Origin: Mucilaginibacter arboris
GTDB taxonomy: Bacteria; Bacteroidota; Bacteroidia; Sphingobacteriales; Sphingobacteriaceae
DNA: 64,000 nt
Direction: 5' to 3'
Assembly (NCBI RefSeq): GCF_009754915.1
Contig: NZ_WPIK01000016.1
Location: 1 to 64,000, forward strand
Shown here: one piece after another, positions 23,385 to 59,112 of the stretch
Position numbering within the stretch: position 1 is the first letter of the stretch
Layout: every line of letters begins with the position of its first letter
The notes under the pieces: generated by a model
What the model saw: the letters and a program-made list of their open reading frames with translations, nothing else
What the model was told of the DNA's origin: nothing
The model's database searches: none
Program-made: the position numbers and the translations under genes

Positions 23385-24533
23385 TTACCTATAAGTAAGA
23401 GCCAAACATTGTGCGTTTTGAATGCGATCAACACGAAAGTTTCTTTTGTCAGATCTCAATAAACAGAAACCAATCATATAAGCAACATCTTTAGCATCTT
23501 CCTTTATCGTTACCAATTGCATGTTTTTAATCGTTCTTTGAGTTAACTGGTTATTCTTGTTTAGATACTTGATCCTAATATAGGATTTTTGAGTAATTGC
23601 TTTATTAAGTAAAACTTGAATTTCATTCGTAATAAACTTCGATGTTGCAGCTTCTGGCTGCGTTAATATGTCGAATTTAGGTGCCTCTTCAGTAAACGGC
23701 GTAGTTACTGATCTGACACTGGTTGATGCTTTCAAATTATACTCTTCCATTCTATTTGTAAGATAATTGAAGCCTCTCAAGTAGTAGTAGCCACCTTTGT
23801 GTGAAATATTTTTTGGCTGAATTAGGGTCTTTTTAAGAGAATTTCCAACCATTAAATAACCTGACTTCTGAATTATTTTTTGAATTTCAACAAGTCTCTT
23901 ATCTGGTATTTTTTCTATTAATTCAAGTACCTCTACTGGTAAAGGGTATTCTGAGATGCAGTTGTTAATAGTATCAAAATAATTGACCACTACAGCAGTT
24001 ACTGGTATAAGTCGAATCACTTTACCCTTATCATTTAAAGGATGTTTTGATTTGTATGGCACATTTCCAACAAATTGAAGAACAGGTGGCAAAAAGGCAA
24101 GCAAAGTATTTATAGTAGTATTGGGCGCACCACCATTTACTGAATTATCATCATAGCTAAGTGTGGATTTCTTTTTTCCAAGTTCTAATGAAACTGTTTT
24201 AAAGTTAAGCCTTGCACCACGTTCTATACTTTTTGGATCAATCGCTAAAGCGGATTTTTTAATTAATTTTAACTGATCTTCATAAACATCAGCTGTCTCA
24301 AACTTGAAAGTTTTGGGAGAAAACCAGATACACTCATATCTGAAAGTATCAACCTTTTTTTCATCTGCCTTAAAGGTGGATTTAGATATTTCTGTAACGA
24401 CCATCAGTGGAGGCAATGTTAAATGATCCCCACTAACGATAATAGAAGTGTTTTCGGAAACGTAAGGATGAGACTTTAATGTAACAATATCACCAATACT
24501 AAAAAATTTAGATTCCATGCCTAAACTTAGCAT
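23385..24533 (-). CDS. Protein with C-terminal WYL-like domain, next to a reverse transcriptase
   Basis: 382 residues. Residues ~305-380 (VLLNKAITQKSYIRIKYLNK, then GFCLLRSDKRNFRVDRIQNA) have the WYL pattern: a basic N-terminal strand, then an LRxDKRxFRxDRI ending. WYL domains sense nucleic acids or nucleotides and often control defence operons. The N-terminal 300 residues show no helix-turn-helix I can recognise and are of unknown fold. It is divergent from the reverse transcriptase gene and could regulate or assist it. An alternative ATG lies five codons in. Confidence 0.5.
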   Translation of the reverse strand: MLSLGMESKFFSIGDIVTLKSHPYVSENTSIIVSGDHLTLPPLMVVTEISKSTFKADEKKVDTFRYECIWFSPKTFKFETADVYEDQLKLIKKSALAIDPKSIERGARLNFKTVSLELGKKKSTLSYDDNSVNGGAPNTTINTLLAFLPPVLQFVGNVPYKSKHPLNDKGKVIRLIPVTAVVVNYFDTINNCISEYPLPVEVLELIEKIPDKRLVEIQKIIQKSGYLMVGNSLKKTLIQPKNISHKGGYYYLRGFNYLTNRMEEYNLKASTSVRSVTTPFTEEAPKFDILTQPEAATSKFITNEIQVLLNKAITQKSYIRIKYLNKNNQLTQRTIKNMQLVTIKEDAKDVAYMIGFCLLRSDKRNFRVDRIQNAQCLALTYR

Positions 24534-24552
24534 ATTACTGCAACAACTTTTT

Positions 24553-24900
24553 TATATTTGTGAGCCTTGCAGCGAGAGGGGGATAAGACATTTAGTTAGG
24601 CCGTAAAGTTTTTCAAGAATAACTATTTTATCTGTGTTCTCGAAAGATTGACTGATTATCTATAGGATAACAGGTAAGCGATTGCCATGTACAGCGGCTA
24701 TTTGAGCATTTATAGCCTTCACAGATTCAACGGCTCGTCCGAGCAATTGAATAAATGAGGTTACTATAAGGTGTTCTGTGGTGCTGATACAGCATATCAC
24801 TAATATGTGAATAAAGATATTAATTATCAATAGCATTTCCATTGTTGTTGAATTATATGTCAGTTTATGTATAACATTGAATTAATAGTGTGACTCATTA
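24553..24900 (+). ncRNA. Candidate long leader or non-coding RNA ahead of the reverse transcriptase
   Basis: TATATTTG (24553-24560) is an exact Bacteroidota -7 box and would start a transcript ~340 nt before the reverse transcriptase gene. The stretch has no reading frame of note. It contains a hairpin around TGCTG-ATA-CAGCA (~24780-24800) and an ATGTATAACAT dyad near 24865. Several defence reverse transcriptases use an RNA template encoded just upstream; that this is one is an inference from position only. Confidence 0.3.
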
Positions 24901-24901
24901 G

Positions 24902-26566
24902 ATGGGTACTGGCCTTATATCGCAAGAGAAGTTATGTTTATCAATCAACCCGTTACACCCGTTGCAAGGCTTTTTTATGATTCCGCCATTTGACAAACGT
25001 CCAGAATGGTTTAAAGGCCGCGGCTACCTACATATCACCCCTAAAATTGATATTCGAGAAAGGTATATTGAACTCTACGCTTTAATTAACAATCCTGATT
25101 TCGTAGCTAAGCACGCTTTCTTTCCACTTATTCATTCTATAATTAAAGAAAGAAAATACAAAAAGAAACCTGATGGAACCGGAAGGGCACATTCTTTTAT
25201 TAAAGAAGGTAAGCTTACCCGAACTGAAAAAAAACGTCCACTCCACTATGCAACGCATATAGACGCTTTGATTTTTGGTTGCTATGCTACAAAATTATCC
25301 AAATTATATGAGGAAAACTTACAAGCTGATAAAGAACTAAACGACTGTGTCATTGCTTACCGGAAGATTCCTATTGAAGACCCTGATGGCGATAACAAAG
25401 AAGTCATAGGCAAAAGCACTATTCATTTTGCACGTGAAGCATTTAATGAAATTAAAGAAAGAGGGAAGGCAGGGTGTACAGTTTTAATGTTTGACATTAA
25501 AAGCTTTTTTAGTGAGCTTAATCATCAAAAATTGAAAGAAGCATGGTGTAGCTTACTAAACGTAGAAAGACTAGATCCTGCAAATTTTAATGTGTTTAAA
25601 GCTGCAACGGAATTCAGATATATTTTAAAGGACGATTTAAGATTAAACCCTAAAAAGCATGGTAAACGAAGCGGATTTGATGAGAGAAAACTTTCGGTTA
25701 TTCGTAAGTATCACGGGATTGAATCTTTCTTTTCATCTATTGAAGAATTTAAAGAGGCAATTAAACACAAAAGAATTAGGGTGTACAAGCATCCATTTGT
25801 AAAAGATAAAAAAGCTGTTGGGATTCCACAAGGTCTTCCTGTTAGCGCAGTCCTTGCAAACCTATATCTATTAAGTTTTGATAAAAAGGTACTAGAAGTG
25901 GTGGTAGATGGGTACAAAGGATTTTATCGAAGGTACTCGGATGACATTATGATTATTTGCGAGCCGGAGCATACAAACGAAATAGAAAAGTTCATGCTTG
26001 CTGAAATACAGAAAAGCAAGGTAAAAATTAGCCCTGATAAGACTGAAAAGTATCTATTTCAGTATGAACAAATTAGCTCGCGCATAAACAGACTAACATC
26101 AACACTTATCAGTGGTGAGAAAAAAATTATAGGAAAACCATTGACTTATCTCGGTTTTGAGTTTTATGGTTATAAAACACTAATTAAGTCAGCGAATATT
26201 GCCAAATATTATCGTAGGATGATAAGTGCTGTTAGGAGGCATGCTCACCGGGCGGGTAACAATCACCATCTTATAGGTTCAAGACCCGCGATTTTTCCAC
26301 GCCAGTTAAGAAAGCTTTATAATGATATCGATCTAAGTAGAGATAAAGAACGTCCAGAACGAAAAGTATTAATAAAAAACGATAAAGGTTATTTCCATTT
26401 TGTAAAAGTTAAGGCTACACCAAGGCCTAAAAGTAATTACTTTGCTTACTCCAGGCGATCTGGTGATATTATGAGCGAGCCTAAGGTCAAAGATCAATTA
26501 AATAAACATCGTAGTATATTTCATGCAGCAATGTCTCGACATCTAAAAAAAATCAAAAATCAATAA
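24902..26566 (+). CDS. Reverse transcriptase, probable defence-associated (unknown-group type)
   Basis: 554 residues (a second ATG at 24977 is equally possible). Polymerase motifs are intact: motif A LMFDIKSFFSELNH (Asp198), motif B GIPQGLPVSAVLANLYL (307-323), motif C YRRYSDDIMIIC (YSDD 345-348), and motif D region KVKISPDKTEKYLF. There is no maturase or endonuclease domain as in group II introns and no intron structure nearby. The N-terminal RPEWFKGRGYLHITPK and ~150 C-terminal residues of unknown fold fit stand-alone antiviral (DRT/UG) reverse transcriptases. The exact class cannot be assigned by eye. Confidence 0.8.
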   Translation: MGTGLISQEKLCLSINPLHPLQGFFMIPPFDKRPEWFKGRGYLHITPKIDIRERYIELYALINNPDFVAKHAFFPLIHSIIKERKYKKKPDGTGRAHSFIKEGKLTRTEKKRPLHYATHIDALIFGCYATKLSKLYEENLQADKELNDCVIAYRKIPIEDPDGDNKEVIGKSTIHFAREAFNEIKERGKAGCTVLMFDIKSFFSELNHQKLKEAWCSLLNVERLDPANFNVFKAATEFRYILKDDLRLNPKKHGKRSGFDERKLSVIRKYHGIESFFSSIEEFKEAIKHKRIRVYKHPFVKDKKAVGIPQGLPVSAVLANLYLLSFDKKVLEVVVDGYKGFYRRYSDDIMIICEPEHTNEIEKFMLAEIQKSKVKISPDKTEKYLFQYEQISSRINRLTSTLISGEKKIIGKPLTYLGFEFYGYKTLIKSANIAKYYRRMISAVRRHAHRAGNNHHLIGSRPAIFPRQLRKLYNDIDLSRDKERPERKVLIKNDKGYFHFVKVKATPRPKSNYFAYSRRSGDIMSEPKVKDQLNKHRSIFHAAMSRHLKKIKNQ

Positions 26567-26975: not shown

Positions 26976-26989
26976 AAAGTGTACTTTTG
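26958..26989 (+). promoter_or_regulatory. Promoter of the AbiE-like operon
   Basis: TTTG at 26958-26961 and TACTTTTG at 26982-26989 are separated by 20 bp, an ideal -33/-7 pair of the Bacteroidota type. The -33 element lies within the second 39-bp repeat. Confidence 0.65.
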
Positions 26990-27005
26990 TAAAAAACAAG
27001 AAAAA

Positions 27006-27761
27006 GTGGCTAAGGATTTAATTGTCGAACAGTTAAAGAGGAAATTTGAAGGAAAGGAAACTTTTTCCAGAAAGGAACTATTTGATTTTTATTTGCGCTT
27101 CGATCCTGATTTAAAGGAAACGACTTTCAGGTGGCGGATATATGATCTTCGTGAAAAAAAAATTATTAATCCGATCTCGAGAGAATTATTTTCATTTACT
27201 TACAAGCCCACTTTCAAACCAGAATTTAACGATTCCGAAAAAAAGATAATTACTAAAATAATTAAGCAATTTCCAGAAATGAAGTTATGTATCTGGTCAA
27301 CGCGGATATTAAATGAATTCATGCTACATCAGGTGGTAAAATTCATTACCATTATAGAAGTGGAAAAAGATGCTCTTGTACCAGTATTTCATTTTCTAAA
27401 GGACATCAACGTAAGGGATGTTTATTTGCAACCTGAAGAAAAGGAGTTAGAATGGTACGTATATGAAGGTGGCTCAGCACTTATTATCGAATCCCTTGTT
27501 TCTAAAGCTCCTGTCCAAAAATTTAGAAACATACCGGTACCTACTATTGAAAAGATTATTGTAGACATTTTTACAGATCAGAGATTATTTAATACATATC
27601 AGGGAAGTGAGTTGGGTCAAATTATAAATACAGTTTATAGCAGGTATCAGCTTGATTTTACCAAACTATTTAGTTACGCAAAAAGGAGAAGAAAAGAAAG
27701 TGATTTGATGGAATACCTATCACATTATACTGATATACCTCAAACCATTTTATATGATTGA
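27006..27761 (+). CDS. AbiEi-like antitoxin (type IV toxin-antitoxin)
   Basis: 251 residues from a GTG at 27006; an earlier GTG at 26979 lies ahead of the -7 box and is unlikely. Residues 1-85 look like a winged helix (FSRKELFDFYLRFDPDLKET then RWRIYDLREKKIINPIS). The rest (CIWSTRILNEFMLHQ, ALIIESLVSKAPVQ) fits AbiEi/DUF6577 antitoxins that repress transcription and neutralise the toxin. It overlaps the toxin start by 8 bp, typical of coupled toxin-antitoxin genes. Confidence 0.75.
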   Translation: MAKDLIVEQLKRKFEGKETFSRKELFDFYLRFDPDLKETTFRWRIYDLREKKIINPISRELFSFTYKPTFKPEFNDSEKKIITKIIKQFPEMKLCIWSTRILNEFMLHQVVKFITIIEVEKDALVPVFHFLKDINVRDVYLQPEEKELEWYVYEGGSALIIESLVSKAPVQKFRNIPVPTIEKIIVDIFTDQRLFNTYQGSELGQIINTVYSRYQLDFTKLFSYAKRRRKESDLMEYLSHYTDIPQTILYD

Positions 27762-28905
27762 CCTGAAGTCGTTATCACCAGAATGGATTGATGAGAAAAG
27801 GGAAAAATACAATAAAGATCCTGGGCTAATAGAAAACATGATCTATGCTTTGCATTTGCTGGAACACTTAAAACTATCAGGTTTAGATTTCATATTTAAA
27901 GGCGGTACGAGCCTAATATTAATGTTGGAAGAACCACAACGTTTTTCCGTAGATATCGATATTATTGTTCGACCCGATATGACAAGGGGCAAGTTAGAAT
28001 CTCACATATCAAAAATTTTAGAATCAAGCAATTTTACCGGCATACGGCTGGATGAGCGTAGAAGCTACAAGGAGGGAGTACCCAAAGCACATTATGCCTT
28101 TTCGTTTCAATCGAATGTTTCAACTAAAAATCAGAAGGGCGAAGTAATAGCGAAGCCACAAAAAGAAATTTTGCTTGACATATTATTTGCAGATAGCCAT
28201 TATGCAGTCATTATAGAAAAACCGGTAGAAACAGAGTGGTTAACGACAGAAGGTGAAATTGTTACAGTCAAAATGCCGGACATTTGCTCTATTGCAGGTG
28301 ATAAATTAACCGCGTTTGCTCCAAATACAACAGGGGTGCCTTATCATAGGGAAGGTATCAACAACAAAGGTGAGACCATCAGGTCAGAAATGTTCATGGA
28401 AATAATGAAACAGGCATTTGACGTGGGTTGCTTGTTCAACCTTATCGAAGACTTGGACACGTTCAAACAGTCTTATAGAGCTACTGCAAGGGCTGAAATC
28501 GAATACCGGTCCGAACGCGGGATTATTTCGGTCGATGAAGTCGCTAAAGATACAATTGCTACGGCCTTAGTGTTAGCAAGGAACAATACACAAATCAATG
28601 CTGATGATAGAGTTATATATAGTTATCTCCAAAAAGGTATAGGGCAATTTGGTCATTATGTTTATGCAGCAAATTTTCGAATCGAACAGGCCCAGGTCGC
28701 CGTTGCAAAAGCAGCATATCTGGCGGCAATTGTATTAACTAACGCGGATGTTTTAGAAAGATTTGATAGTAAAATACCAGTAAAAGAATATATAATCAAC
28801 CATCCAGACCACAATTTTTTAAATAAACAATTGAAGTTTGTAGCTAAAGGAGAAGCCCTTTTTTATTGGAAGCGAACAGTAGCATTGCTATTTGATGGTG
28901 AGTAA
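27754..28905 (+). CDS. AbiEii-family nucleotidyltransferase toxin
   Basis: 383 residues. The nucleotidyltransferase core is visible as FIFKGGTSLILMLEEPQRFS followed by VDIDIIV (metal-binding DxD), with the downstream aspartate in EILLDILFAD and the lysine region SIAGDKLTAFAP. AbiEii toxins transfer nucleotides to tRNA or other targets and cause abortive infection by growth arrest. It is co-translated with the upstream antitoxin. Motifs are intact, so the toxin is likely active. Confidence 0.87.
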   Translation: MIDLKSLSPEWIDEKREKYNKDPGLIENMIYALHLLEHLKLSGLDFIFKGGTSLILMLEEPQRFSVDIDIIVRPDMTRGKLESHISKILESSNFTGIRLDERRSYKEGVPKAHYAFSFQSNVSTKNQKGEVIAKPQKEILLDILFADSHYAVIIEKPVETEWLTTEGEIVTVKMPDICSIAGDKLTAFAPNTTGVPYHREGINNKGETIRSEMFMEIMKQAFDVGCLFNLIEDLDTFKQSYRATARAEIEYRSERGIISVDEVAKDTIATALVLARNNTQINADDRVIYSYLQKGIGQFGHYVYAANFRIEQAQVAVAKAAYLAAIVLTNADVLERFDSKIPVKEYIINHPDHNFLNKQLKFVAKGEALFYWKRTVALLFDGE

Positions 28906-30668: not shown

Positions 30669-31625
30669 ATGGCAACAGATAGAAATAAACATCTTAATGA
30701 TGTGCTTACTTCCCACAAGGTAAGCAAAGAACAAGACCTGCTAGATAAACATAAACGTAAACGAGACGAGATATTTGACGCTTTAGTAGCAAAATATAGT
30801 GGCGATATTTACTCCCCTTTCAACTCGGGTTCATTTGCAAAAAATACGGCCGTTAACAAAAAATTTGATTTCGATTTAATGATTCCATTTAAAAGAAATT
30901 CTTTTAGCACACTGGAAGAGATGTTTACAGATTTGTATAATTACTTATTAGAGAAATACGGCAGCATTGCGCATGTCCGTAAACAAAAAGTGTCAATAGG
31001 AACTGAATTCTTTGCTGATGATAATGGGGATGTGGTGAAGATTGATGTGGTGCCCGGCAGGGAATTAAATCAAAATCAGTATAAAGAAGATGATAAACTG
31101 AATTTATATGTGTATTCGCAGTTTGGTAAACTGCAAGGTGGTAGCGACTATATCCGCAGTAATATAAAGGCACAGGTGCAAAATATTAGAGACAATGCAG
31201 ATAAAGTTAATTTAAGGCAGAATGTAAGATTATTGAAAGTTTGGAAGATTTATAATAGCAAAACACCGAAATCTTTTTTTTTGGAACTAATAACTATTAA
31301 AGCATTTGATAAAGTAGAAATAACAGGCGGTATGTGGGATAGGCTGAAATCTGTTATGGAATATATACGTGATAATGTAAAAACTGTATCATTACCAGAT
31401 CCGGGTAATAGCAATAACGAGGTTGCAGATTCTATGTCGGATTATGAAAAATCTGCACTAAGCGATGATATGAAAAACATGATAAACCGGATAGAAGAAA
31501 ACAGCGATTATATTAAGGTATATTTTCCTCTTAATGAAAAATTTCCGATTGAGGATACGAGTAGCAATAAGTACGACGAGCGTAAATCTGGACCATCTAT
31601 TCCACCACCAACACGCTTTGGTTAA
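30669..31625 (+). CDS. CBASS cyclic-oligonucleotide synthase (CD-NTase)
   Basis: 318 residues. The nucleotidyltransferase signature is complete: GSFAKNTAVNKKFDFDL (Gly54-Ser55, Asp67 and Asp69) and the third aspartate in VVKIDVVPG (Asp126). The enzyme makes a cyclic nucleotide signal upon phage infection. The C-terminus is a flexible, Pro-rich tail ending PTRFG; in type II CBASS the terminal residue is the one joined to targets by Cap2. It starts a four-gene operon with cap2, cap3 and a membrane effector. The clade is not assignable by eye. Confidence 0.9.
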   Translation: MATDRNKHLNDVLTSHKVSKEQDLLDKHKRKRDEIFDALVAKYSGDIYSPFNSGSFAKNTAVNKKFDFDLMIPFKRNSFSTLEEMFTDLYNYLLEKYGSIAHVRKQKVSIGTEFFADDNGDVVKIDVVPGRELNQNQYKEDDKLNLYVYSQFGKLQGGSDYIRSNIKAQVQNIRDNADKVNLRQNVRLLKVWKIYNSKTPKSFFLELITIKAFDKVEITGGMWDRLKSVMEYIRDNVKTVSLPDPGNSNNEVADSMSDYEKSALSDDMKNMINRIEENSDYIKVYFPLNEKFPIEDTSSNKYDERKSGPSIPPPTRFG

Positions 31626-33266
31626 ATGAAAAGTAGAACAGATTATATTACCGATGCAATGGAGAAAGTTGAGTGCGTAAAAATTACTCAACCTTTTGTG
31701 CCGGATAATTTGATTGTGAAAGGTGCTATCGAGATAACTGTTAATTTGTTAACTCTGAATTTTGAGGTTGAGGTATATTCTCCGTACCCTTTTCAATATC
31801 ACGATCTTGAGACTATACGATTTGTCAATAAAGCTTTGATCAAATATGATCATGTCAATGGAGATGGTTCTATCTGTGTTCACACATTACACAGCCCCGA
31901 TCTTGCTACTAAAATTGCTCTTGATTTAAACTCGCTGAAACACTGGATCAATAAATACTTCATCAATAGACAGAAGGATGTTCATTATGAACACATCGTC
32001 GTTTCTCCTTCTGGAACAGGCAAGAGCCAGGCGCTTTGGTTTACCGACGTTAACTACCTGTTTAGTAAGGGTGAATTTGGCCAGTTTCATTTTTCAATGT
32101 TGAGTACGGGAAATGTCAACAATGAAGTAGTTCAAACTTTTATATTGCAGGAATTTAGGTTTAAAAATCAAGAGGTAAAATCTTTATGGAATAAAAACTA
32201 TAAACAGTTAAATCAGTCCACTGGAATATTTCTATTTATAGGAAATCCACCGGTTACAAACCGTCGGTTTGCTGTTTCTAACTGGCAAGACCTTGAACCG
32301 TTTGTAGGGCAAGACTTCTTTAAATATCTACATCACTTTGAAGTAAACCTAAAGAAAAATTCTTCGAAAACTTCTGAACTAAAGTTAATTCTAGGTTACC
32401 ACATCGAAAAAAACGAAATCCACTGGCAATGCATTAATCTCCCAGTGGGTAATTTTCCAAATTATGCCGAAAAAACAGGCCCTAAAACCTATCAAGGCCG
32501 TTTTAAGGACAAGTTGATCGATTGGATGCACACCAAGAACTGTTCGCCTAAGTATTTTTTTGGACGTGGAACATTATCAAAAAAGCTTACAGATAGCAGA
32601 ATTTTAGTAATTGGTATAGGAGCAATTGGCAGTATGTTATGTACCACGCTCATCCGCGGTGGTTGTCTTAATTTATTTCTAAATGATCATGACGTTAAAG
32701 AAGCAGACAACGTTTGCCGATCAGAATATCAGTTTTCAAGCGGTATGGTTTCGAAGGTATATGAACTTCGAAATCAGCTTTTGCTCATTTCGCCATTTGC
32801 AGAAATCAACGGTAACGAAGAACTCACTGATATTATCAAAAGGTACAGCAAAGAGGACAACTGGCAGGCAGCCTTGCAGGAAGCACTTAATAATTTCGAT
32901 TATATTTTTGACTGTACCACGGATAATGATCTGGCATATATATTTAGTCAATTAACTATCAAGCCGGAGGTTATAAATATTTCAATTACCAATCATGCAA
33001 AGGAATTGGTTTGTGTATTTAAACAAAATCAATATGACTGGTTAATGGAGATATTTAAAAGTCTTAATAACGATATTATGGACTTATATAATCCTACAGG
33101 TTGCTGGAGTCCGACTTTTAAAGCTAGCTATAACGATATTTCCGTATTGATACAGTTTGCACTTAAGCAAATAAACCAAGCGTTGACCAAAGAACGACCT
33201 TTAAAGAATTTTTACCTTTCTACGTCTGAAGAAGATGGCTTTGAAATTAAATTAAACCAGTTTTGA
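31626..33266 (+). CDS. cap2: CBASS Cap2: fused E2-E1 ubiquitin-transfer-like enzyme
   Basis: 546 residues, ATG directly after the stop of the CD-NTase. The N-terminal E2-like domain carries a candidate active cysteine in GDGSICVHT (Cys84). The C-terminal adenylating E1 domain has the nucleotide-binding loop VIGIGAIGSM (residues 328-337) and the DNVCRSEYQF arginine region. Cys493 in TGCWSPTF is a candidate E1 cysteine. Cap2 activates the CD-NTase C-terminus and conjugates it to cellular targets, which primes the synthase. Architecture and length are standard for type II CBASS. Confidence 0.9.
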   Translation: MKSRTDYITDAMEKVECVKITQPFVPDNLIVKGAIEITVNLLTLNFEVEVYSPYPFQYHDLETIRFVNKALIKYDHVNGDGSICVHTLHSPDLATKIALDLNSLKHWINKYFINRQKDVHYEHIVVSPSGTGKSQALWFTDVNYLFSKGEFGQFHFSMLSTGNVNNEVVQTFILQEFRFKNQEVKSLWNKNYKQLNQSTGIFLFIGNPPVTNRRFAVSNWQDLEPFVGQDFFKYLHHFEVNLKKNSSKTSELKLILGYHIEKNEIHWQCINLPVGNFPNYAEKTGPKTYQGRFKDKLIDWMHTKNCSPKYFFGRGTLSKKLTDSRILVIGIGAIGSMLCTTLIRGGCLNLFLNDHDVKEADNVCRSEYQFSSGMVSKVYELRNQLLLISPFAEINGNEELTDIIKRYSKEDNWQAALQEALNNFDYIFDCTTDNDLAYIFSQLTIKPEVINISITNHAKELVCVFKQNQYDWLMEIFKSLNNDIMDLYNPTGCWSPTFKASYNDISVLIQFALKQINQALTKERPLKNFYLSTSEEDGFEIKLNQF

Positions 33267-33733
33267 AACTAAAAAATGAAGAAATAGGGCTGTATCTGGA
33301 AATAACGGACGGCCTGCTTAACATCATTAAAGATTTAGGATTAAAACATTACCCCAAAGAATTTGGGGGAGTACTCGTAGGTTATTATTCAATAGACAAG
33401 AAAACAGTTAACATAATTGATACCCTATTGCCTGTTTCTTATAAATCTTCCAAGATTCATTTTGAAAGAGGATCTGAAGGATTGAAAGAACAACTGATAG
33501 AACTCTTTAATGCCGAGCAGCCTCTTATTTATCTTGGCGAATGGCACATTCATCCAGATGCACGACCCTTGCCAAGCGGGACCGACGTTGAAGGAATAAC
33601 AGAAATTGCAAAACATAAGGATGTCAATATTACCAGTCCAATACTTTTGATAGTTGGTCTAACCACAACCGAGATGGAGCTAGGATTTTACGTTTATTTT
33701 AAAAATAAAATTTATAAATATGAAACCTACTAA
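33263..33733 (+). CDS. cap3: CBASS Cap3: JAB/JAMM isopeptidase
   Basis: 156 residues, starting with TTG overlapping the cap2 stop by 4 bp. The JAMM zinc motif is complete: Glu33 in PKEFGGVLVGY and GEWHIHPDARPLPSGTD (His95, His97, Asp108). Cap3 cleaves the conjugates made by Cap2 and so resets or limits signalling. Its placement between cap2 and the effector is as expected for type II CBASS. Confidence 0.9.
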   Translation: MKLKNEEIGLYLEITDGLLNIIKDLGLKHYPKEFGGVLVGYYSIDKKTVNIIDTLLPVSYKSSKIHFERGSEGLKEQLIELFNAEQPLIYLGEWHIHPDARPLPSGTDVEGITEIAKHKDVNITSPILLIVGLTTTEMELGFYVYFKNKIYKYETY

Positions 33734-34502
33734 CAAAATATTTACCGTAGTCTTAATTATGCTTTTTCCTATTATTGGAATCAGTAAGCCAATTCAAAAT
33801 CAAAAGTCCAAATCTGATGCACGTATTGAAACATTAGAAAAACGAGTTCAGCAACTGGAAAATTATAAGGGTAATATAGATAACTTATCAAAAATTCAGA
33901 GTGAGAATTTAAGAAAGTATGTCGATGACGAAATAAAGAAGGGCATGGGTAAGATCGACGATGCTAAAACTATGATCACATGGATACTTTGGTTCGGTTT
34001 ACCTGTGACACTAATTTCAATAGCAGTAGGATATTTTTCAGCTATTAAAAAAGCTAAAAAATTTGTGCTTGATAAAATCGAAACAGTTGTGGAGGGAAAT
34101 CGGGATGAAATAATCCGATTGATTGAGACTGAAGCTTTTGACACAAGATTGAGAAATACTAAACATTTATTGGTAGTTAGTGGTGATGAAGAGTCAGAGG
34201 AAAGTTTAAAAAAGTTTATGACAAAGCTTAACTTCAAAAATGTTAAATATAGGAGAGCAGAATCAGTTGACAATATTCCTGATCACGATCTAATGATTTT
34301 TAACACACCGAAAGGCAATCTTAGTCAAGAAACAATAGATCTATTTATGCAGAATACTGAAGATGAAGATATTTGCTATGTCGCATATACAACTATGCAA
34401 CTTAATCGTGACCCAAGATTAAATTTTTCTAATTCTAGATTTACGTTATATCACAGTATATTATCAACTTTAAAATTTTCTGAAAGTGCACGGTTAAATT
34501 GA
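33720..34502 (+). CDS. Probable CBASS effector: membrane protein with cytosolic Rossmann-like domain
   Basis: 260 residues, start overlapping cap3 by 14 bp. A hydrophobic N-terminus (7-22) resembles a signal peptide or first membrane helix. A coiled coil (~33-80) and a strong membrane helix (~86-107, ITWILWFGLPVTLISIAVGY) follow. The C-terminal part (~145-260) begins with a Rossmann-like strand-turn (KHLLVVSGDEESEESLKKFM) and continues VDNIPDHDLMIFNT and DEDICYVAYTT. The effector position plus membrane helices suggest ligand-triggered membrane disruption. It does not match the common phospholipase, endonuclease, TIR-SAVED or Cap15-type effectors. Confidence 0.6.
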   Translation: MKPTNKIFTVVLIMLFPIIGISKPIQNQKSKSDARIETLEKRVQQLENYKGNIDNLSKIQSENLRKYVDDEIKKGMGKIDDAKTMITWILWFGLPVTLISIAVGYFSAIKKAKKFVLDKIETVVEGNRDEIIRLIETEAFDTRLRNTKHLLVVSGDEESEESLKKFMTKLNFKNVKYRRAESVDNIPDHDLMIFNTPKGNLSQETIDLFMQNTEDEDICYVAYTTMQLNRDPRLNFSNSRFTLYHSILSTLKFSESARLN

Positions 34503-34779: not shown

Positions 34780-36360
34780 ATGTCTGAAGATCAGAAAAAA
34801 CAATTGGAGCAGCAACTCTGGAATGTAGCTAATACATTGCGCGGCAAGATGAATGCAGATGAATTTCGAGATTATATATTAGGATTCATCTTTTACAAAT
34901 ACCTCTCTGAGCGGATGGAAATCTACGCCAATGAAATTCTTGAAACTGATGGAATCAAATACAAAGAAATTAATGAAAACGCCGAAGATGGCAAAGCTTA
35001 TTTAGAGGCGATAAAAGAAGCATCTGTAGAAAAATTGGGTTACTTTCTAAAGCCTTCCGAACTGTTTAGCGAGGTGGCCAAACGTGGTAATGGTGATAAA
35101 GACGAAGATGAAAGCAATTTCATTTTGGAAGACCTGCAAAAGATCCTGACCAACATTCAGCAAAGTACAATGGGCACGGAAAGTGAAGAGGATTTTGACC
35201 ATTTGTTTGAAGATATGGATTTAAACAGCACTAAGCTGGGCAAAACGCCGGAAGCGAGGAATAGCATCATTGCGAAAGTGTTAGCCCACCTGGATAAGAT
35301 CGATTTTAAACTAGAACAAAGCGAACTGGATGTGTTGGGTGATGCTTACGAATATCTGATCGGTCAGTTTGCCAGTGGCGCAGGAAAAAAAGCAGGTGAG
35401 TTCTACACACCACAACAAGTAAGTACGATTTTGGCAAAACTGGTAACTACCGGCAAGAAAAAACTAAAGTATGCTTATGACCCAACCTTTGGTTCTGGTT
35501 CGCTAATACTACGCGTGGCAAAAGAAGTAGAGGTAACACAGTTTTTTGGACAGGAGTTAAATCGTACCACTTATAACTTGGCGCGGATGAACATGATCTT
35601 ACATGGTATCAATTATCGTCGGTTCAATATCAAGCAAGAAGACACGCTGGAGCATCCACAGCATTTGGGAATGGAATTTGAAGCTATTGTAGCCAATCCA
35701 CCCTTTTCTGCCCAGTGGAGCGCAAACCCTTTATTTACGAGCGATGACCGATTTAGTCAATATGGTAAACTGGCACCAAGCAGCAAAGCTGATTTTGCTT
35801 TTGTACAGCACATGATTCATCATCTGGCAGAAAATGGAACAATGGCTATTGTACTTCCGCACGGCGCGCTGTTTCGTGGCGGTGCAGAGCAGCATATCCG
35901 CCGGTATCTCATCGAAAATCGGAATTACCTGGATGCAGTAATAGGTTTACCGGCTAACATTTTTTATGGTACCAGTATTCCTACCTGTATTATGGTGTTT
36001 AAAAAATGCCGGGAACAGCCGGACGATATTCTGTTTATTGATGCCAGCAAAGGTTACGAAAAAGTAAAAACGCAGAATGTTTTACGAACAGAACATATAG
36101 AAAAGATTGTAAATACTTACCGAAACCGGCAGGAAATACCGAAATTTAGTAAAAGAAGTACGCTAAAAGAAGTAGCGGAAAACGATTACAATCTGAATAT
36201 TCCGCGCTATGTAGATACGTTTGAAGCAGACGACCAACTGGATATCAACGCCATTGCGCTGGAACTGCAAACTTTGGAGAAGGATATGAAAAATACGGAT
36301 ACTGAACTGGCTACTTTTTGTACAGCATTAGGTATTGAAACACCTTTTTCATTAATATGA
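34780..36360 (+). CDS. hsdM: Type I restriction-modification methyltransferase subunit
   Basis: 526 residues. An N-terminal helical HsdM domain (KKQLEQQLWNVANTLRGKMN) is followed by the N6-adenine methyltransferase core: motif I DPTFGSGSLILRVAKE and catalytic motif IV EAIVANPPFSAQW. The targeted adenine methylation protects host DNA. It overlaps hsdS by 4 bp (ATGA). Full length and intact motifs indicate an active enzyme. Confidence 0.95.
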   Translation: MSEDQKKQLEQQLWNVANTLRGKMNADEFRDYILGFIFYKYLSERMEIYANEILETDGIKYKEINENAEDGKAYLEAIKEASVEKLGYFLKPSELFSEVAKRGNGDKDEDESNFILEDLQKILTNIQQSTMGTESEEDFDHLFEDMDLNSTKLGKTPEARNSIIAKVLAHLDKIDFKLEQSELDVLGDAYEYLIGQFASGAGKKAGEFYTPQQVSTILAKLVTTGKKKLKYAYDPTFGSGSLILRVAKEVEVTQFFGQELNRTTYNLARMNMILHGINYRRFNIKQEDTLEHPQHLGMEFEAIVANPPFSAQWSANPLFTSDDRFSQYGKLAPSSKADFAFVQHMIHHLAENGTMAIVLPHGALFRGGAEQHIRRYLIENRNYLDAVIGLPANIFYGTSIPTCIMVFKKCREQPDDILFIDASKGYEKVKTQNVLRTEHIEKIVNTYRNRQEIPKFSKRSTLKEVAENDYNLNIPRYVDTFEADDQLDINAIALELQTLEKDMKNTDTELATFCTALGIETPFSLI

Positions 36361-37595
36361 TGGTTACAGAAAATACAGATTTAGCACTTGAGCCGGTTTT
36401 GCGGTTTCCTGAATTTGAAGGAGAATGGGAGCAGAAGAAGTTGGGAGAAATTACACAATACGTAGATTATAGAGGAAAAACTCCTCAGAAAAGCGAACAA
36501 GGTGTATTTTTGGTTACGGCAAAAAATATAAAGCAAGGATACATTGATTATGAAGTTTCAAGAGAATTTATTCTTTTGAAAGATTATGAAAATGTCATGA
36601 GAAGAGGTAAGCCTCTTATTGGTGATGTTCTTATTACAACAGAAGCACCATTAGGTAATGTTGCATCTATTGACATTGAAGGAATTGCTTTAGCTCAACG
36701 AGTTATTAAGTTAAGAGGAAAAGAAAATATTTTACAAAATGGTTTCCTTAAATTTAGACTTATTAGTCCTCAATTTCAAAAACCTTTAGATGATAAATCA
36801 AGTGGAACAACAGCTAAAGGTATAAAAGGAAGTGAATTGCATAAAATGGCAATTTCTTTCCCCACACTTCCCGAACAAAAACGCATTGCATCTTTCTTCA
36901 CTGTTTTAGATCAAAAGCTAAACCAACTCAAACAAAAGAAAAACCTGTTGGCGCAATATAAAAAAGGTGTTAGGCAGCAGCTCTTTTCGCAGAAATTGCG
37001 GTTTAAGGACGATGAAGGAAATGAGTTTCCGGATTGGGAGGAGAAAAAGTTGAATCAAATTACAGAAATTTTTGACGGAACACACCAAACGCCGACGTAT
37101 TTACCAATTGGTATTCCTTTTTATAGTGTTGAACACGTTACTGCAAATAATTTTGAAAATACCAAATTCATATCTATTGATGTTTTTGAAAAAGAAAACA
37201 AAAGAGTAAAATTAGAAAAGGGCGATATTTTAATGACTCGTATTGGTGATATAGGTACAGCAAGACTTATTGATTGGGATGTTAAAGCTTCATTTTATGT
37301 TAGTTTAGCCTTAATCAAACAATCATCAGAATTTTATTCAGCCTACCTAAATCATTATATTTCTACCAAAGATTTTCAAAATGAATTATGGCAGAGAACC
37401 ATTCACGTAGCATTTCCTAAGAAAATAAATTTAGGTGAAATTGGTAATTGTATTGTTATGCTTCCTGTAATTGCAGAACAAACCAAAATCGCCAACTTCC
37501 TTTCAGCAATTGATGAAAAAATAAATCAAACGCAAATCCAGATAAAAAAAACCGAACAATACAAAAAAGGGCTGATGCAAAAAATGTTCTGCTAA
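36357..37595 (+). CDS. hsdS: Type I restriction-modification specificity subunit
   Basis: 412 residues with two target-recognition domains, each opening with WE-K-KL (EWEQKKLGEITQYVDYRGKT and DWEEKKLNQITEIFDGTHQT), separated and followed by the conserved spacer helices (PTLPEQKRIASFFTVLDQKL, EQTKIANFLSAIDEKINQ). Each domain recognises half of a bipartite DNA site. The two halves are near-repeats, as expected. The ATG overlaps the hsdM stop. Confidence 0.93.
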   Translation: MMVTENTDLALEPVLRFPEFEGEWEQKKLGEITQYVDYRGKTPQKSEQGVFLVTAKNIKQGYIDYEVSREFILLKDYENVMRRGKPLIGDVLITTEAPLGNVASIDIEGIALAQRVIKLRGKENILQNGFLKFRLISPQFQKPLDDKSSGTTAKGIKGSELHKMAISFPTLPEQKRIASFFTVLDQKLNQLKQKKNLLAQYKKGVRQQLFSQKLRFKDDEGNEFPDWEEKKLNQITEIFDGTHQTPTYLPIGIPFYSVEHVTANNFENTKFISIDVFEKENKRVKLEKGDILMTRIGDIGTARLIDWDVKASFYVSLALIKQSSEFYSAYLNHYISTKDFQNELWQRTIHVAFPKKINLGEIGNCIVMLPVIAEQTKIANFLSAIDEKINQTQIQIKKTEQYKKGLMQKMFC

Positions 37596-37645
37596 AAGAA
37601 GTATTCAAATTAAAGCCTTCATCATTCAAAGCTTCTACCAAACCA

Positions 37646-40495
37646 ATGAGTAAACAGCCCGAACAAATACTGGAAGAACAACTGGTAGCACAATTGCAAA
37701 AGCTGGGTTACGCTTTTGTTCAACTGAAAGATGAACAGGATTTGTTAGCCAACTTAAAAGCACAGTTAGAGCAGCACAACAACATTCATTTTACAGAAAA
37801 AGAATTTGAACGGGTTCTTAATCTGCTAAGCAAAGGTTCTGTATTTGAGAAGGCCAAAATGCTGCGCGAAATGCAGCATCTGGTTAGAGATAATGGCGAT
37901 AACCTGTATTTCGAGTTTCTACAAACCGAGCACTGGTGCCAGAACCGTTTCCAGGTAACCCAGCAGGTAAGCATGGAAGGCAAATACAAAAACCGATACG
38001 ATGTTACGCTGCTAATAAATGGTTTGCCTTTGGTACAGATAGAACTGAAACGGCGCGGACTGGAACTGAAAGAAGCTTTTAACCAGATTAACCGTTACCA
38101 ACGCCACTCGTTTGGTGCAGGTGCGGCACTGTTTCAATATGTGCAGGTATTTGTCATCAGCAACGGTGTAAATACCAAGTATTACGCCAACAACAAAACG
38201 CAGACCTTTAAGCAAACCTTTTACTGGACTGACCGGGAAAACCAGCGTTTAACCAATATCCTCAACGGTTTTACAACAGATTTTTTAGAGCCTTGCCATA
38301 TCAGTAAAATGATATGTAAATATATCGTGCTAAACGAAGCATACAAGGTCTTAATGGTGTTGCGCCCGTACCAGTATTATGCGGTAGAAGCTTTAATAGA
38401 CCGGGTTAAAAACAGCAACAAAAACGGTTACATCTGGCATACTACCGGTTCGGGCAAAACTTTGACTGCTTTTAAAGCCAGTCAGATTTTAACTGGCTTG
38501 CCGCAGATTAAAAAGGTAGTTTTTGTAGTTGACCGGAAAGATTTGGATTATCAAACCACTAAAGAGTTTAACAGCTTTAGCAAAGGCAGCATAGACGGAA
38601 CAGACAATACAAAAGCATTGGTTAAACAGTTTACAGACGATACCAAACTGATTGTAACGACCATCCAAAAACTAAATACAGCTATCAGCAAAAAGCAGTA
38701 TCTGGATCAGATGGAAAAGCTAAAGGATGAACGCATCGTTTTTATTTTTGACGAATGCCACCGCAGTCAGTTCGGCGAAACACATAACCGGATTAAAGCT
38801 TTTTTTAACAATATTCAGCTGTTCGGTTTTACCGGTACGCCCATTTTTGCTGATAATGCTGTAAAAAACGAACTGGGCAAAAGAACCACTAAAGAACTGT
38901 TTGGTGAATGCTTGCACAAATACGTGATCACGGACGCCATCAGGGACGAAAACGTATTGAAGTTTGCGGTTGAATATGTAGGCAGGTACAAACGGAAAGA
39001 TACTGCGACCGAAGTAGATATTGAAGTAGAAGACATTGACACCAAAGAGTTAATGGATTCGCCATTGCGATTGGAAAAAATAGCAGATTATATTATTGCC
39101 AATCATCACCGTAAAACGCATAGTCAGGCATTTACGGCCATGTTCTGCATTAACAGCGTTGATACGCTGATTAAATATTACGACATCTTCCAGCGTAAAA
39201 AAGAAGCAGGCGAACACAGTTTAAAAGTTGCAACCATTTTTAGTTATGCAGCAAATGAAGACGATGCCGATGCGAATGGCTTTATTCCCGAAGAACTTTC
39301 GGTTGCAGAAGAACCAAAGGTTTTATACGGACTGAACGTACACACCCGCGAAAAGCTGGATGAGTTTATTACTCATTATAATCAGTTGTTTGACACCAAG
39401 TTTTCGACGAGAGATAGCGAAACTTTCTACAACTATTACAACGATATTTCCAAGAAGGTAAAGGAAAAGAAGATCGATATCCTGTTTGTGGTCAACATGT
39501 TTTTAACAGGCTTTGATAGCCCTGGTTTAAATACGCTTTATGTAGATAAGAACTTGCAGTACCATGGTTTGATTCAGGCCTATTCGCGCACCAATCGTAT
39601 TCTGGATGAAAAGAAATCTCAGGGCAACATTGTGGTTTTTCGGAACTTGAAAGATGCTACGGATGAAGCGATCACTTTATTTTCTAATAAAGAAGCGATT
39701 GAAGAAATCATCATGGCTCCTTTTGAAGACTACGTAGAGAAATTCAATACTGCTTATAATGAACTGCTGAAAATAACACCTACCGTAAACAGTGTTAATG
39801 ATTTGCAAAGCGAAGATGAGGAACTGGCCTTTGTTAAAGCATTCCGCGAATTGATGCGTATCAAAAATATTCTGTCTGCTTTTGCCGATTTTGACATGGA
39901 TAGCGTGGAAATGCCCGAACAGCTTTTTGAGGACTACAAAAGCAAGTATTTGGATTTATACGACAAGGCAAAAAGCAATGACCAGAAAGAAAAGGTTTCT
40001 ATTTTAGAAGATGTGGACTTTGAACTGGAGCTGATTCATCGTGATGAAATTAACGTTAATTACATTATCCAGCTGCTTATCAAGCTCAAAGCAAACTCCA
40101 AAAAAGATACAACCCAGGTTGAAAAGGAAATATTTAACTTGTTAAATACAGAAGCACCTTTAAGAAGCAAACGAGAACTGATCGAAAAGTTTATTCAGGA
40201 TAATTTACCTGTTTTGCAAAACACCGACGATATACCGGAAGCATTTGAAAAGTTTTGGAACAAGGAACAACAAAAAGCTTTTGAGCAACTAGTAGAAGAA
40301 GAAAACCTTTCCGCAGATAGAACCGAAAAAATAATTGAAGATTATCTTTATGCAGAACGGGAACCTTTGCGTGATGAAGTGCTGGAGCTGCTGAAAGGAG
40401 ATAAACCTTCAATTTTACTGCGCAAAAAAACCGGAGACCGGATTTTAGGAAAGGTCATAAGTTTCGTGGAAAAGTTTATTAATGGAATGAGATGA
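37646..40495 (+). CDS. hsdR: Type I restriction endonuclease/translocase subunit
   Basis: 949 residues. The N-terminal nuclease domain is seen in NGLPLVQIELKRRG (PD-(D/E)XK catalytic Glu and Lys). The motor has Walker A HTTGSGKTLTAFKA, Walker B / DEAH-type IFDECHRSQFG, motif III FGFTGTPIF and the motif VI region QAYSRTNRI. The C-terminus is helical for HsdM docking. It starts 50 bp after hsdS and completes the RM operon. A dif-like site lies 64 bp downstream. Confidence 0.95.
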   Translation: MSKQPEQILEEQLVAQLQKLGYAFVQLKDEQDLLANLKAQLEQHNNIHFTEKEFERVLNLLSKGSVFEKAKMLREMQHLVRDNGDNLYFEFLQTEHWCQNRFQVTQQVSMEGKYKNRYDVTLLINGLPLVQIELKRRGLELKEAFNQINRYQRHSFGAGAALFQYVQVFVISNGVNTKYYANNKTQTFKQTFYWTDRENQRLTNILNGFTTDFLEPCHISKMICKYIVLNEAYKVLMVLRPYQYYAVEALIDRVKNSNKNGYIWHTTGSGKTLTAFKASQILTGLPQIKKVVFVVDRKDLDYQTTKEFNSFSKGSIDGTDNTKALVKQFTDDTKLIVTTIQKLNTAISKKQYLDQMEKLKDERIVFIFDECHRSQFGETHNRIKAFFNNIQLFGFTGTPIFADNAVKNELGKRTTKELFGECLHKYVITDAIRDENVLKFAVEYVGRYKRKDTATEVDIEVEDIDTKELMDSPLRLEKIADYIIANHHRKTHSQAFTAMFCINSVDTLIKYYDIFQRKKEAGEHSLKVATIFSYAANEDDADANGFIPEELSVAEEPKVLYGLNVHTREKLDEFITHYNQLFDTKFSTRDSETFYNYYNDISKKVKEKKIDILFVVNMFLTGFDSPGLNTLYVDKNLQYHGLIQAYSRTNRILDEKKSQGNIVVFRNLKDATDEAITLFSNKEAIEEIIMAPFEDYVEKFNTAYNELLKITPTVNSVNDLQSEDEELAFVKAFRELMRIKNILSAFADFDMDSVEMPEQLFEDYKSKYLDLYDKAKSNDQKEKVSILEDVDFELELIHRDEINVNYIIQLLIKLKANSKKDTTQVEKEIFNLLNTEAPLRSKRELIEKFIQDNLPVLQNTDDIPEAFEKFWNKEQQKAFEQLVEEENLSADRTEKIIEDYLYAEREPLRDEVLELLKGDKPSILLRKKTGDRILGKVISFVEKFINGMR

Positions 40496-58944: not shown

Positions 58945-59112
58945 TTTTTTAAATGTTTTATGTTTGAGAACCCTTTAAAATGTGCATCAGGGATAGGAGT
59001 GGTTATCCTTTTTGCGACGTGGTGATGTTGTGGGAAAAAGATATGAACGGATAGCCCGTAAAGGCCAACGAGCATAGGGATGCCCAAAGAACGGCTTGGA
59101 AAGAAATGCTTT

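Follow-up and report, generated by a model that had tools for sequence, protein, structure and literature searches.

Introduction

In the DRT2 defense system of Klebsiella pneumoniae, a reverse transcriptase (RT) is encoded next to a non-coding RNA (ncRNA), and a gene termed neo is readable only from tandem repeats of the complementary DNA (cDNA). The repeat unit is 120 nucleotides (nt) in Klebsiella and 117 nt in most relatives, and a sigma70 promoter arises across the repeat junction (PMC12039810). The ACA trinucleotides at the edges of the unit serve template jumping (PMC11100668). For divergent clades, the DRT2 authors described the annotation of Neo as "more challenging" and suggested possible alternative mechanisms (PMC11100668, a 2024 preprint). 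Here, we report on a locus at positions 23,385 to 26,566 of a 64,000-nt stretch of Mucilaginibacter arboris DNA (assembly GCF_009754915.1, contig NZ_WPIK01000016.1, positions 1 to 64,000; hereafter the window), in which an RT gene is preceded by a conserved structured RNA and lies divergent from a gene for a protein with YodC-like and WYL parts, hereafter the partner. With a probability of roughly 80%, we read this locus as a divergent DRT2 defense system, in which the RT, a pseudoknotted ncRNA, an antisense neo frame and the partner would act together and the template would be copied into tandem repeats.

Results

A DRT2-family reverse transcriptase

A first-pass annotation of the window, made from the sequence alone, had described an intact polymerase with a YSDD motif and neither maturase nor endonuclease parts, and this description holds (motif at 25934-25945). 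Against the PADLOC Drt2 model PDLC03757 the RT scores 433 bits, with the next family, RT_UG17, at 85 bits, and it matches a solved DRT2 RT at the sequence level (6e-38). Its AlphaFold model is of moderate confidence (predicted local distance difference test, pLDDT, of 74) and has as its best fold match the DRT2-ncRNA complex 9c0i (E value 2.8e-25, template modeling score of 0.74 by target, 24% identity), the next-best match standing at 1.7e-9. A group II intron RT was considered and rejected (TIGR04416, 59 bits against a cut-off of 300; no Rfam intron match at the gathering threshold), as was a retron RT (St85 model, 50 bits against a cut-off of 235; no credible Rfam match at the locus, permissive threshold included). 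Both assignments, raised by the first-pass annotation as challenges to its own reading, fail on profile scores and fold match.

The start codon of the RT is the ATG at 24977, which gives a protein of 529 amino acids, and not that at 24902 (554 amino acids): homology begins at 24977, and relatives start at the equivalent ATG. The first 25 codons of the open frame 24902-26566 overlap the conserved RNA, which reaches 24971. In a phylogenetic tree, the RTs that have a YodC/WYL partner form one clade with a support of 1.0. This clade comprises 34 distinct loci, mostly from relatives of the window's family, and the named relatives are Mucilaginibacter, Olivibacter, Chitinophaga and Dyadobacter. A search of viral contigs returned weak, distant RTs only. 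In the RT matches at L013, L022, L023, L027 and L029, the matched part is interrupted by an in-frame stop; these matches may represent decayed genes, or a translation of upstream RNA.

A conserved, pseudoknotted RNA upstream of the RT

The first-pass annotation had placed a perfect -7 box at 24553 and an RNA start ~340 nt before the RT, and had held that this upstream stretch should be conserved among homologues. The box is present (TATATTTG), and 11/11 close relatives carry TAnnTTTG upstream of the RNA 5' end, as do most of the tested loci at greater distance. The stretch between the box and the RT start codon is occupied by an ncRNA that is conserved in relatives. The RNA is real; it is ~405 nt long, and the RT starts at 24977.

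That the RNA is structured is indicated by folding energy and by covariation, the latter being a check that the annotation had itself proposed. The minimum free energy of the window RNA corresponds to z = -5.3, and it folds better than 100/100 shuffles. Covariation was scored on a hand-written structure of five helices (35 pairs) in alignment A3, which holds 11 sequences including that of the window. Across this alignment 93.8% of cells are paired, and compensatory change on both sides is seen in 17/35 pairs and 29 cells. The resulting covariation score of 0.307 was matched in 0/500 shuffles, and structures slid along the alignment pair 35-45% of cells.

The two ends of the RNA are brought together by helix P1, whose strands differ in sequence in more distant groups yet stay complementary. 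Together with the T run directly 5' of the RT ATG, P1 looks like a terminator. Helices P2 and P3 cross, and therefore form a pseudoknot. Compensatory change is also seen in hairpin H1, for example at locus L015 (ACTATTAT/AATAATAG). A Flavobacteriaceae-like DRT2 branch (L066, L074-L080) has a YodC-only partner without WYL and its own distinct 3' scaffold, such as GTGAACCGAGAATTCGGTTAGTGGT.

A hidden antisense reading frame

The putative template is the variable stretch from H1 to the 3' scaffold, and its AUU-bounded length in relatives is 186-198 nt, always a multiple of three. One antisense frame of the template has 0 stops in 11/11 relatives, and none of the relatives is free of stops in any of the five other frames. 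Because single-locus shuffle tests of an antisense open reading frame (ORF) are weak, we used comparative tests. Neutral evolution simulated on trees from an already open ancestor (4000 runs per tree) leaves 0.7-0.9 of the 11 sequences open on average and never more than 6, against the 11/11 observed. All 24 alignment gaps within the template, many of them shared by descent, are multiples of three, and outside the template gaps of all lengths occur. Substitutions conserve residue similarity better than random placement in 9/10 pairs among the five closest sequences (P 0.002-0.05). In the distant groups B, C and F the frame is open in all members, beyond neutral expectation (P at most 0.003 each); support is weak in group B2 (3 loci, P 0.02).

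The predicted antisense product is hydrophobic. Upstream of the start ATG, the frame is open for at least 10 further codons at 34/34 loci (Fisher-combined P 2.7e-4), and beyond the repeat unit it closes at varying positions. An open frame upstream of the ATG is needed across repeat junctions and not by an ordinary gene, and so we favor repeats over an ordinary gene. As judged from sequence, the conserved antisense frame bears the hallmark of a DRT2 "neo" gene, one that would be readable from tandem cDNA repeats only. Together with the DRT2-family RT and the real RNA, this DRT2-like frame supports the first-pass suggestion of an antiviral RT that may use an adjacent ncRNA as its template. The antisense frame is also conserved open in the Flavobacteriaceae-like branch (L066, L074-L080).

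Repeat edges and candidate promoters

The word shared by the two edges of the unit is AUUG in 9/11 relatives and AUU in 2/11, and such shared edges would allow template jumping, like ACA in Klebsiella DRT2. Several loci have more than one ATT near the 3' edge; the ATT in the aligned column was taken, which leaves the edges uncertain by a few nucleotides, and the gap, simulation and residue tests depend little on edge assignment. The window also holds an alternative ACA-edged unit in the same frame (24670-24873, minus strand, 204 nt, 68 codons). Both units are candidates. As a general edge rule, ACA fails in 7/11 relatives, in which it is missing at the 3' edge. When the ACA rule was applied as a control to two annotated Drt2 plasmid loci, a single clean open unit of 105 nt (35 codons) was obtained at L088 and none at L089, and so the rule is incomplete in annotated Drt2 loci too.

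Within the template, a perfect TAnnTTTG is present on the neo strand at 12/34 loci and on the sense strand at 3; in 200 shuffles the mean was 4.0 and the maximum 9. These neo-strand boxes sit downstream of the start codon, and so a tandem arrangement of repeats would be required even then to bring the gene behind them. As a promoter, the boxes are a lead only.

The divergent YodC-like/WYL partner

A divergent protein ending in a WYL-like domain had been noted at first pass, and the 382-residue partner does carry a WYL domain at its C-terminus (Pfam 3.4e-13), with homology starting at about Met6 (24518). In its AlphaFold model (pLDDT 88.8) the N-terminal part is beta-rich, and Foldseek, with modest scores, matches the C-terminus to PafBC, BrxR, CapW and DriD and the N-terminus to SAWADEE/Tudor folds. 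The annotation had not recognized the pairing of such a protein with an RT. The pairing is not new, because PADLOC-DB already lists RTasWYL-YodC (4e-109 for the partner) as an RT-associated protein, along with RTasYodC, which is matched by the partner of a Flavobacteriaceae-like relative (1.6e-89). The partner lies beside the RT in 34/34 clade loci, and none was found at 20 other DRT2 loci, comprising 18 searched within ~1.5 kb and the stretches around the two annotated Drt2 plasmid loci. It is divergent from the RT at most loci, co-directional in L108 and L109, and on the same strand in a few Flavobacteriaceae-like loci.

The R-x-F-R-x-x-R end of the PafC and PafBC WYL domains aligns with residues R364, R367 and R370 of the partner, whose WYL domain was also aligned to that of CapW. 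Among WYL-bearing relatives, R333 and R364 are each kept in 22/22, R360 in 19/22 and R370 in 16/22. WYL proteins resembling the partner (PafBC, CapW, DriD) bind single-stranded DNA (ssDNA) (PMC11804915; PDB titles), and in PafBC mutation of such arginines abolishes this binding (PMC11804915). Because the partner's arginines align with PafBC-type arginines needed for ssDNA binding, our reasoned guess is that the partner may read the cDNA. The literature searched gave no function for the partner and nothing linking DRT2 with WYL or YodC.

Genomic surroundings

The locus is part of a defense island, of which the other members all lie downstream (plus strand). Directly 3' of the RT is an AbiEi/AbiEii-type toxin-antitoxin pair (26979-28905; PADLOC 1e-83 and 1.7e-115). 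It is followed by CBASS-like genes at 30669-34502, which encode an oligonucleotide cyclase, an E1-E2 fusion (5.8e-194) and a NARF-domain protein, and by a type I restriction-modification operon with M, S and R subunits (34780-40495), which completes the island. On the minus strand, a protein at 29194-29934 matches models for type I methyltransferase and specificity subunits over their C-terminal part only, and adjoins an unrelated 221-residue protein. A Flavo-1 small RNA is present at 58982-59065 on the plus strand (Rfam RF01705, 45 bits). The features of the DRT2-like locus itself are listed in Table 1.

Table 1. Features of the locus, in window coordinates; the repeat unit and neo start codon are predictions.
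Feature	Position	Strand	Basis or remark
Partner gene: YodC-like/tandem SH3-Tudor-like N-terminal region and C-terminal WYL	23385..24533	-	PADLOC RTasWYL-YodC 4.1e-109
-7 box TATATTTG of ncRNA promoter	24553..24560	+	Perfect Bacteroidota -7 box
Helix P1, 5' strand	24563..24574	+	Joins the two RNA ends; 9/12 pairs with compensatory change
Structured ncRNA, ~405 nt	24566..24971	+	Ends placed from the -7 box and closing helix
Helix P2, 5' strand AGGCCG	24598..24603	+	4/6 pairs with compensatory change
Hairpin H1, 5'-handle-like, directly 5' of template	24652..24673	+	94.8% paired (11 sequences)
Predicted cDNA repeat unit, 195 nt/65 codons	24681..24875	-	AUU edges at 24681-24683 and 24876-24878
Weak -7-like sequences CATATTAG, TATCTTTA within template	24800..24819	-	Imperfect in window; relatives match better
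Predicted neo start codon ATG	24840..24842	-	In-frame ATG in same region at 34/34 loci
Helix P3, 5' strand GUGUG	24888..24892	+	94.5% paired; 3 sequences with a compensatory UA-to-CG change
Hairpin H2 (ACUCA/UGGGU) of 3' scaffold	24893..24907	+	100% paired
Helix P2, 3' strand UGGCCU	24910..24915	+	Covariation
Helix P3, 3' strand UACAC	24954..24958	+	Covariation
Helix P1, 3' strand; T run then RT start codon after	24960..24971	+	Covariation
DRT2-family reverse transcriptase	24977..26566	+	529 amino acids; YSDD 25934-25945; PADLOC Drt2 3.9e-130

Discussion

We propose that the RT would bind the ncRNA and, upon phage infection, copy the template, beginning at its 3' edge and ending at the base of H1. 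By way of the 3-4-nt repeat at both edges (AUU(G), although ACA also fits the window), it would jump back and so produce tandem cDNA repeats. After synthesis of a second strand, the antisense strand would be transcribed to yield Neo, a repetitive hydrophobic protein with 65-residue repeats, which would halt growth of the infected cell. In the weakest step of this scheme, the WYL domain of the partner would most likely serve to sense cDNA in single-stranded form, and the partner would either license transcription of the repeats or restrain the RT. A more specific version, in which the clade combines a Bacteroidota promoter on the neo strand downstream of the start codon with a dedicated WYL partner whose reading of single-stranded cDNA licenses the step that follows, seems to us unlikely as a whole. 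Were it true, the gene would come behind its promoter in tandem repeats only, and output of a toxic protein would be controlled by a sensor of what the RT itself makes.

Several observations weigh against the DRT2 system proposed here. The RT scores below the cut-off of the NCBIfam Drt2 equivalog NF041746 (340 versus 390 bits), as do the tested relatives (325-361 bits), whereas annotated Drt2 controls score 489 and 567 bits; it is for this reason that we take the RT, on its profile scores, to be a member of a divergent branch of DRT2 (UG2). In the window alone, the antisense run is not significant against shuffles (P 0.08), and so the case for the hidden frame rests on comparison. ACA at both edges and in frame is found only in the window, L001, L002 and L008 (4/11), and no junction promoter, either of sigma70 type or a TTTG/TAnnTTTG pair, scores better than shuffles. 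The partner has no helix-turn-helix (HTH) domain of the PafBC, DriD and BrxR kind, and WYL is missing from the partners of Flavobacteriaceae-like relatives, because of which WYL sensing cannot be essential clade-wide.

The antisense frame could instead be an ordinary gene for a small hydrophobic protein (24660-24842, 60 amino acids, with an ATG and a TAG of its own) transcribed directly from the chromosome, with the RNA as its antisense partner in an arrangement like type I toxin-antitoxin pairs and the RT in some other role. The conserved ATG, the hydrophobic product and the -7-like boxes on the ORF strand would suit such a gene, but these boxes lie downstream of the ATG, and an ordinary gene needs no frame open from the ATG up to the template edge (34/34 loci, P 2.7e-4). 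Nor does it account for a unit length held at a multiple of three while stops beyond the unit drift freely, or for an RNA that is DRT2-like in layout and joined to the RT, and we think it improbable. Slightly less credible again is that the RNA is indeed the template of the RT but the cDNA acts as DNA, in the style of DRT9, DRT10 or retrons, the open frame arising incidentally from composition or RNA structure. In favor of this, the ORF lengths of single loci in the window's group stand out only modestly from shuffles (P 0.004-0.11), but the tree simulation, the frame-preserving gaps, the residue-conserving substitutions and the stops in all five other frames argue for a coding frame.

A further alternative concerns the partner alone and is compatible with the hidden gene, namely that the WYL partner controls transcription of the locus as a conventional regulator and is not a cDNA sensor. 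WYL proteins such as CapW and BrxR control other defense operons (PMC9122588, PMC9122589), and a divergent position, as at most loci here, fits this role. The co-directional partners of L108 and L109 do not, and the partner has an N-terminal part resembling SAWADEE/Tudor barrels in place of a CapW/BrxR-like HTH. We regard regulation as a serious possibility, if short of an even chance.

With the DRT2 reading preferred, we regard the system as a DRT2 variant that has a predicted neo gene and a partner specific to its clade. Annotation misses genes that come into being through reverse transcription only, and here comparison of sequences alone would locate one of them, with an uncertainty of a few codons, across a clade of 34 loci. 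Variation in edges, promoter arrangement and partner indicates which parts of DRT2 may be essential and which changeable. Gene-assembling defense would thereby extend to a DRT2 branch of different design with an extra sensor-like protein, and the locus offers a testable candidate mechanism for the sensing of cDNA synthesis.

Among known systems, DRT2 of Klebsiella pneumoniae (Tang et al. 2024, PMC11100668; Wilkinson et al. 2024, PMC12039810) is the closest, sharing the RT family and fold, an ncRNA directly 5' of the RT that holds a variable template at its center, between a 5' hairpin and a pseudoknotted 3' scaffold, and a stop-free antisense frame with a unit divisible by three, a start codon shortly past the junction and a hydrophobic predicted product. 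The systems differ in the length of the RNA (~405 nt here versus 280 nt) and of the RT (529 versus 425 amino acids), in the shared edges (AUU(G) versus ACA), and in the repeat unit, which is 186-198 nt (62-66 codons) here and 111-129 nt (37-43 codons) in studied DRT2; the present locus also has a helix joining the RNA ends and a YodC/WYL partner, and no junction promoter was found. DRT9 and DRT10 (PMC12483538, PMC12632851) are likewise class 2 DRT systems with ncRNA-templated repetitive cDNA, but they use other RT families and short or homopolymer templates, and no hidden coding frame is reported for them. The partner proteins match the PADLOC models RTasWYL-YodC and RTasYodC; PADLOC records protein models only, and the literature searched holds no description of an ncRNA, neo gene or partner function for this clade. 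Finally, PafBC, DriD, CapW and BrxR have HTH domains where the partner's N-terminal part is SAWADEE/Tudor-like, and they have in common with it the WYL fold and the terminal R-x-F-R-x-x-R (R364, R367 and R370 in the partner).
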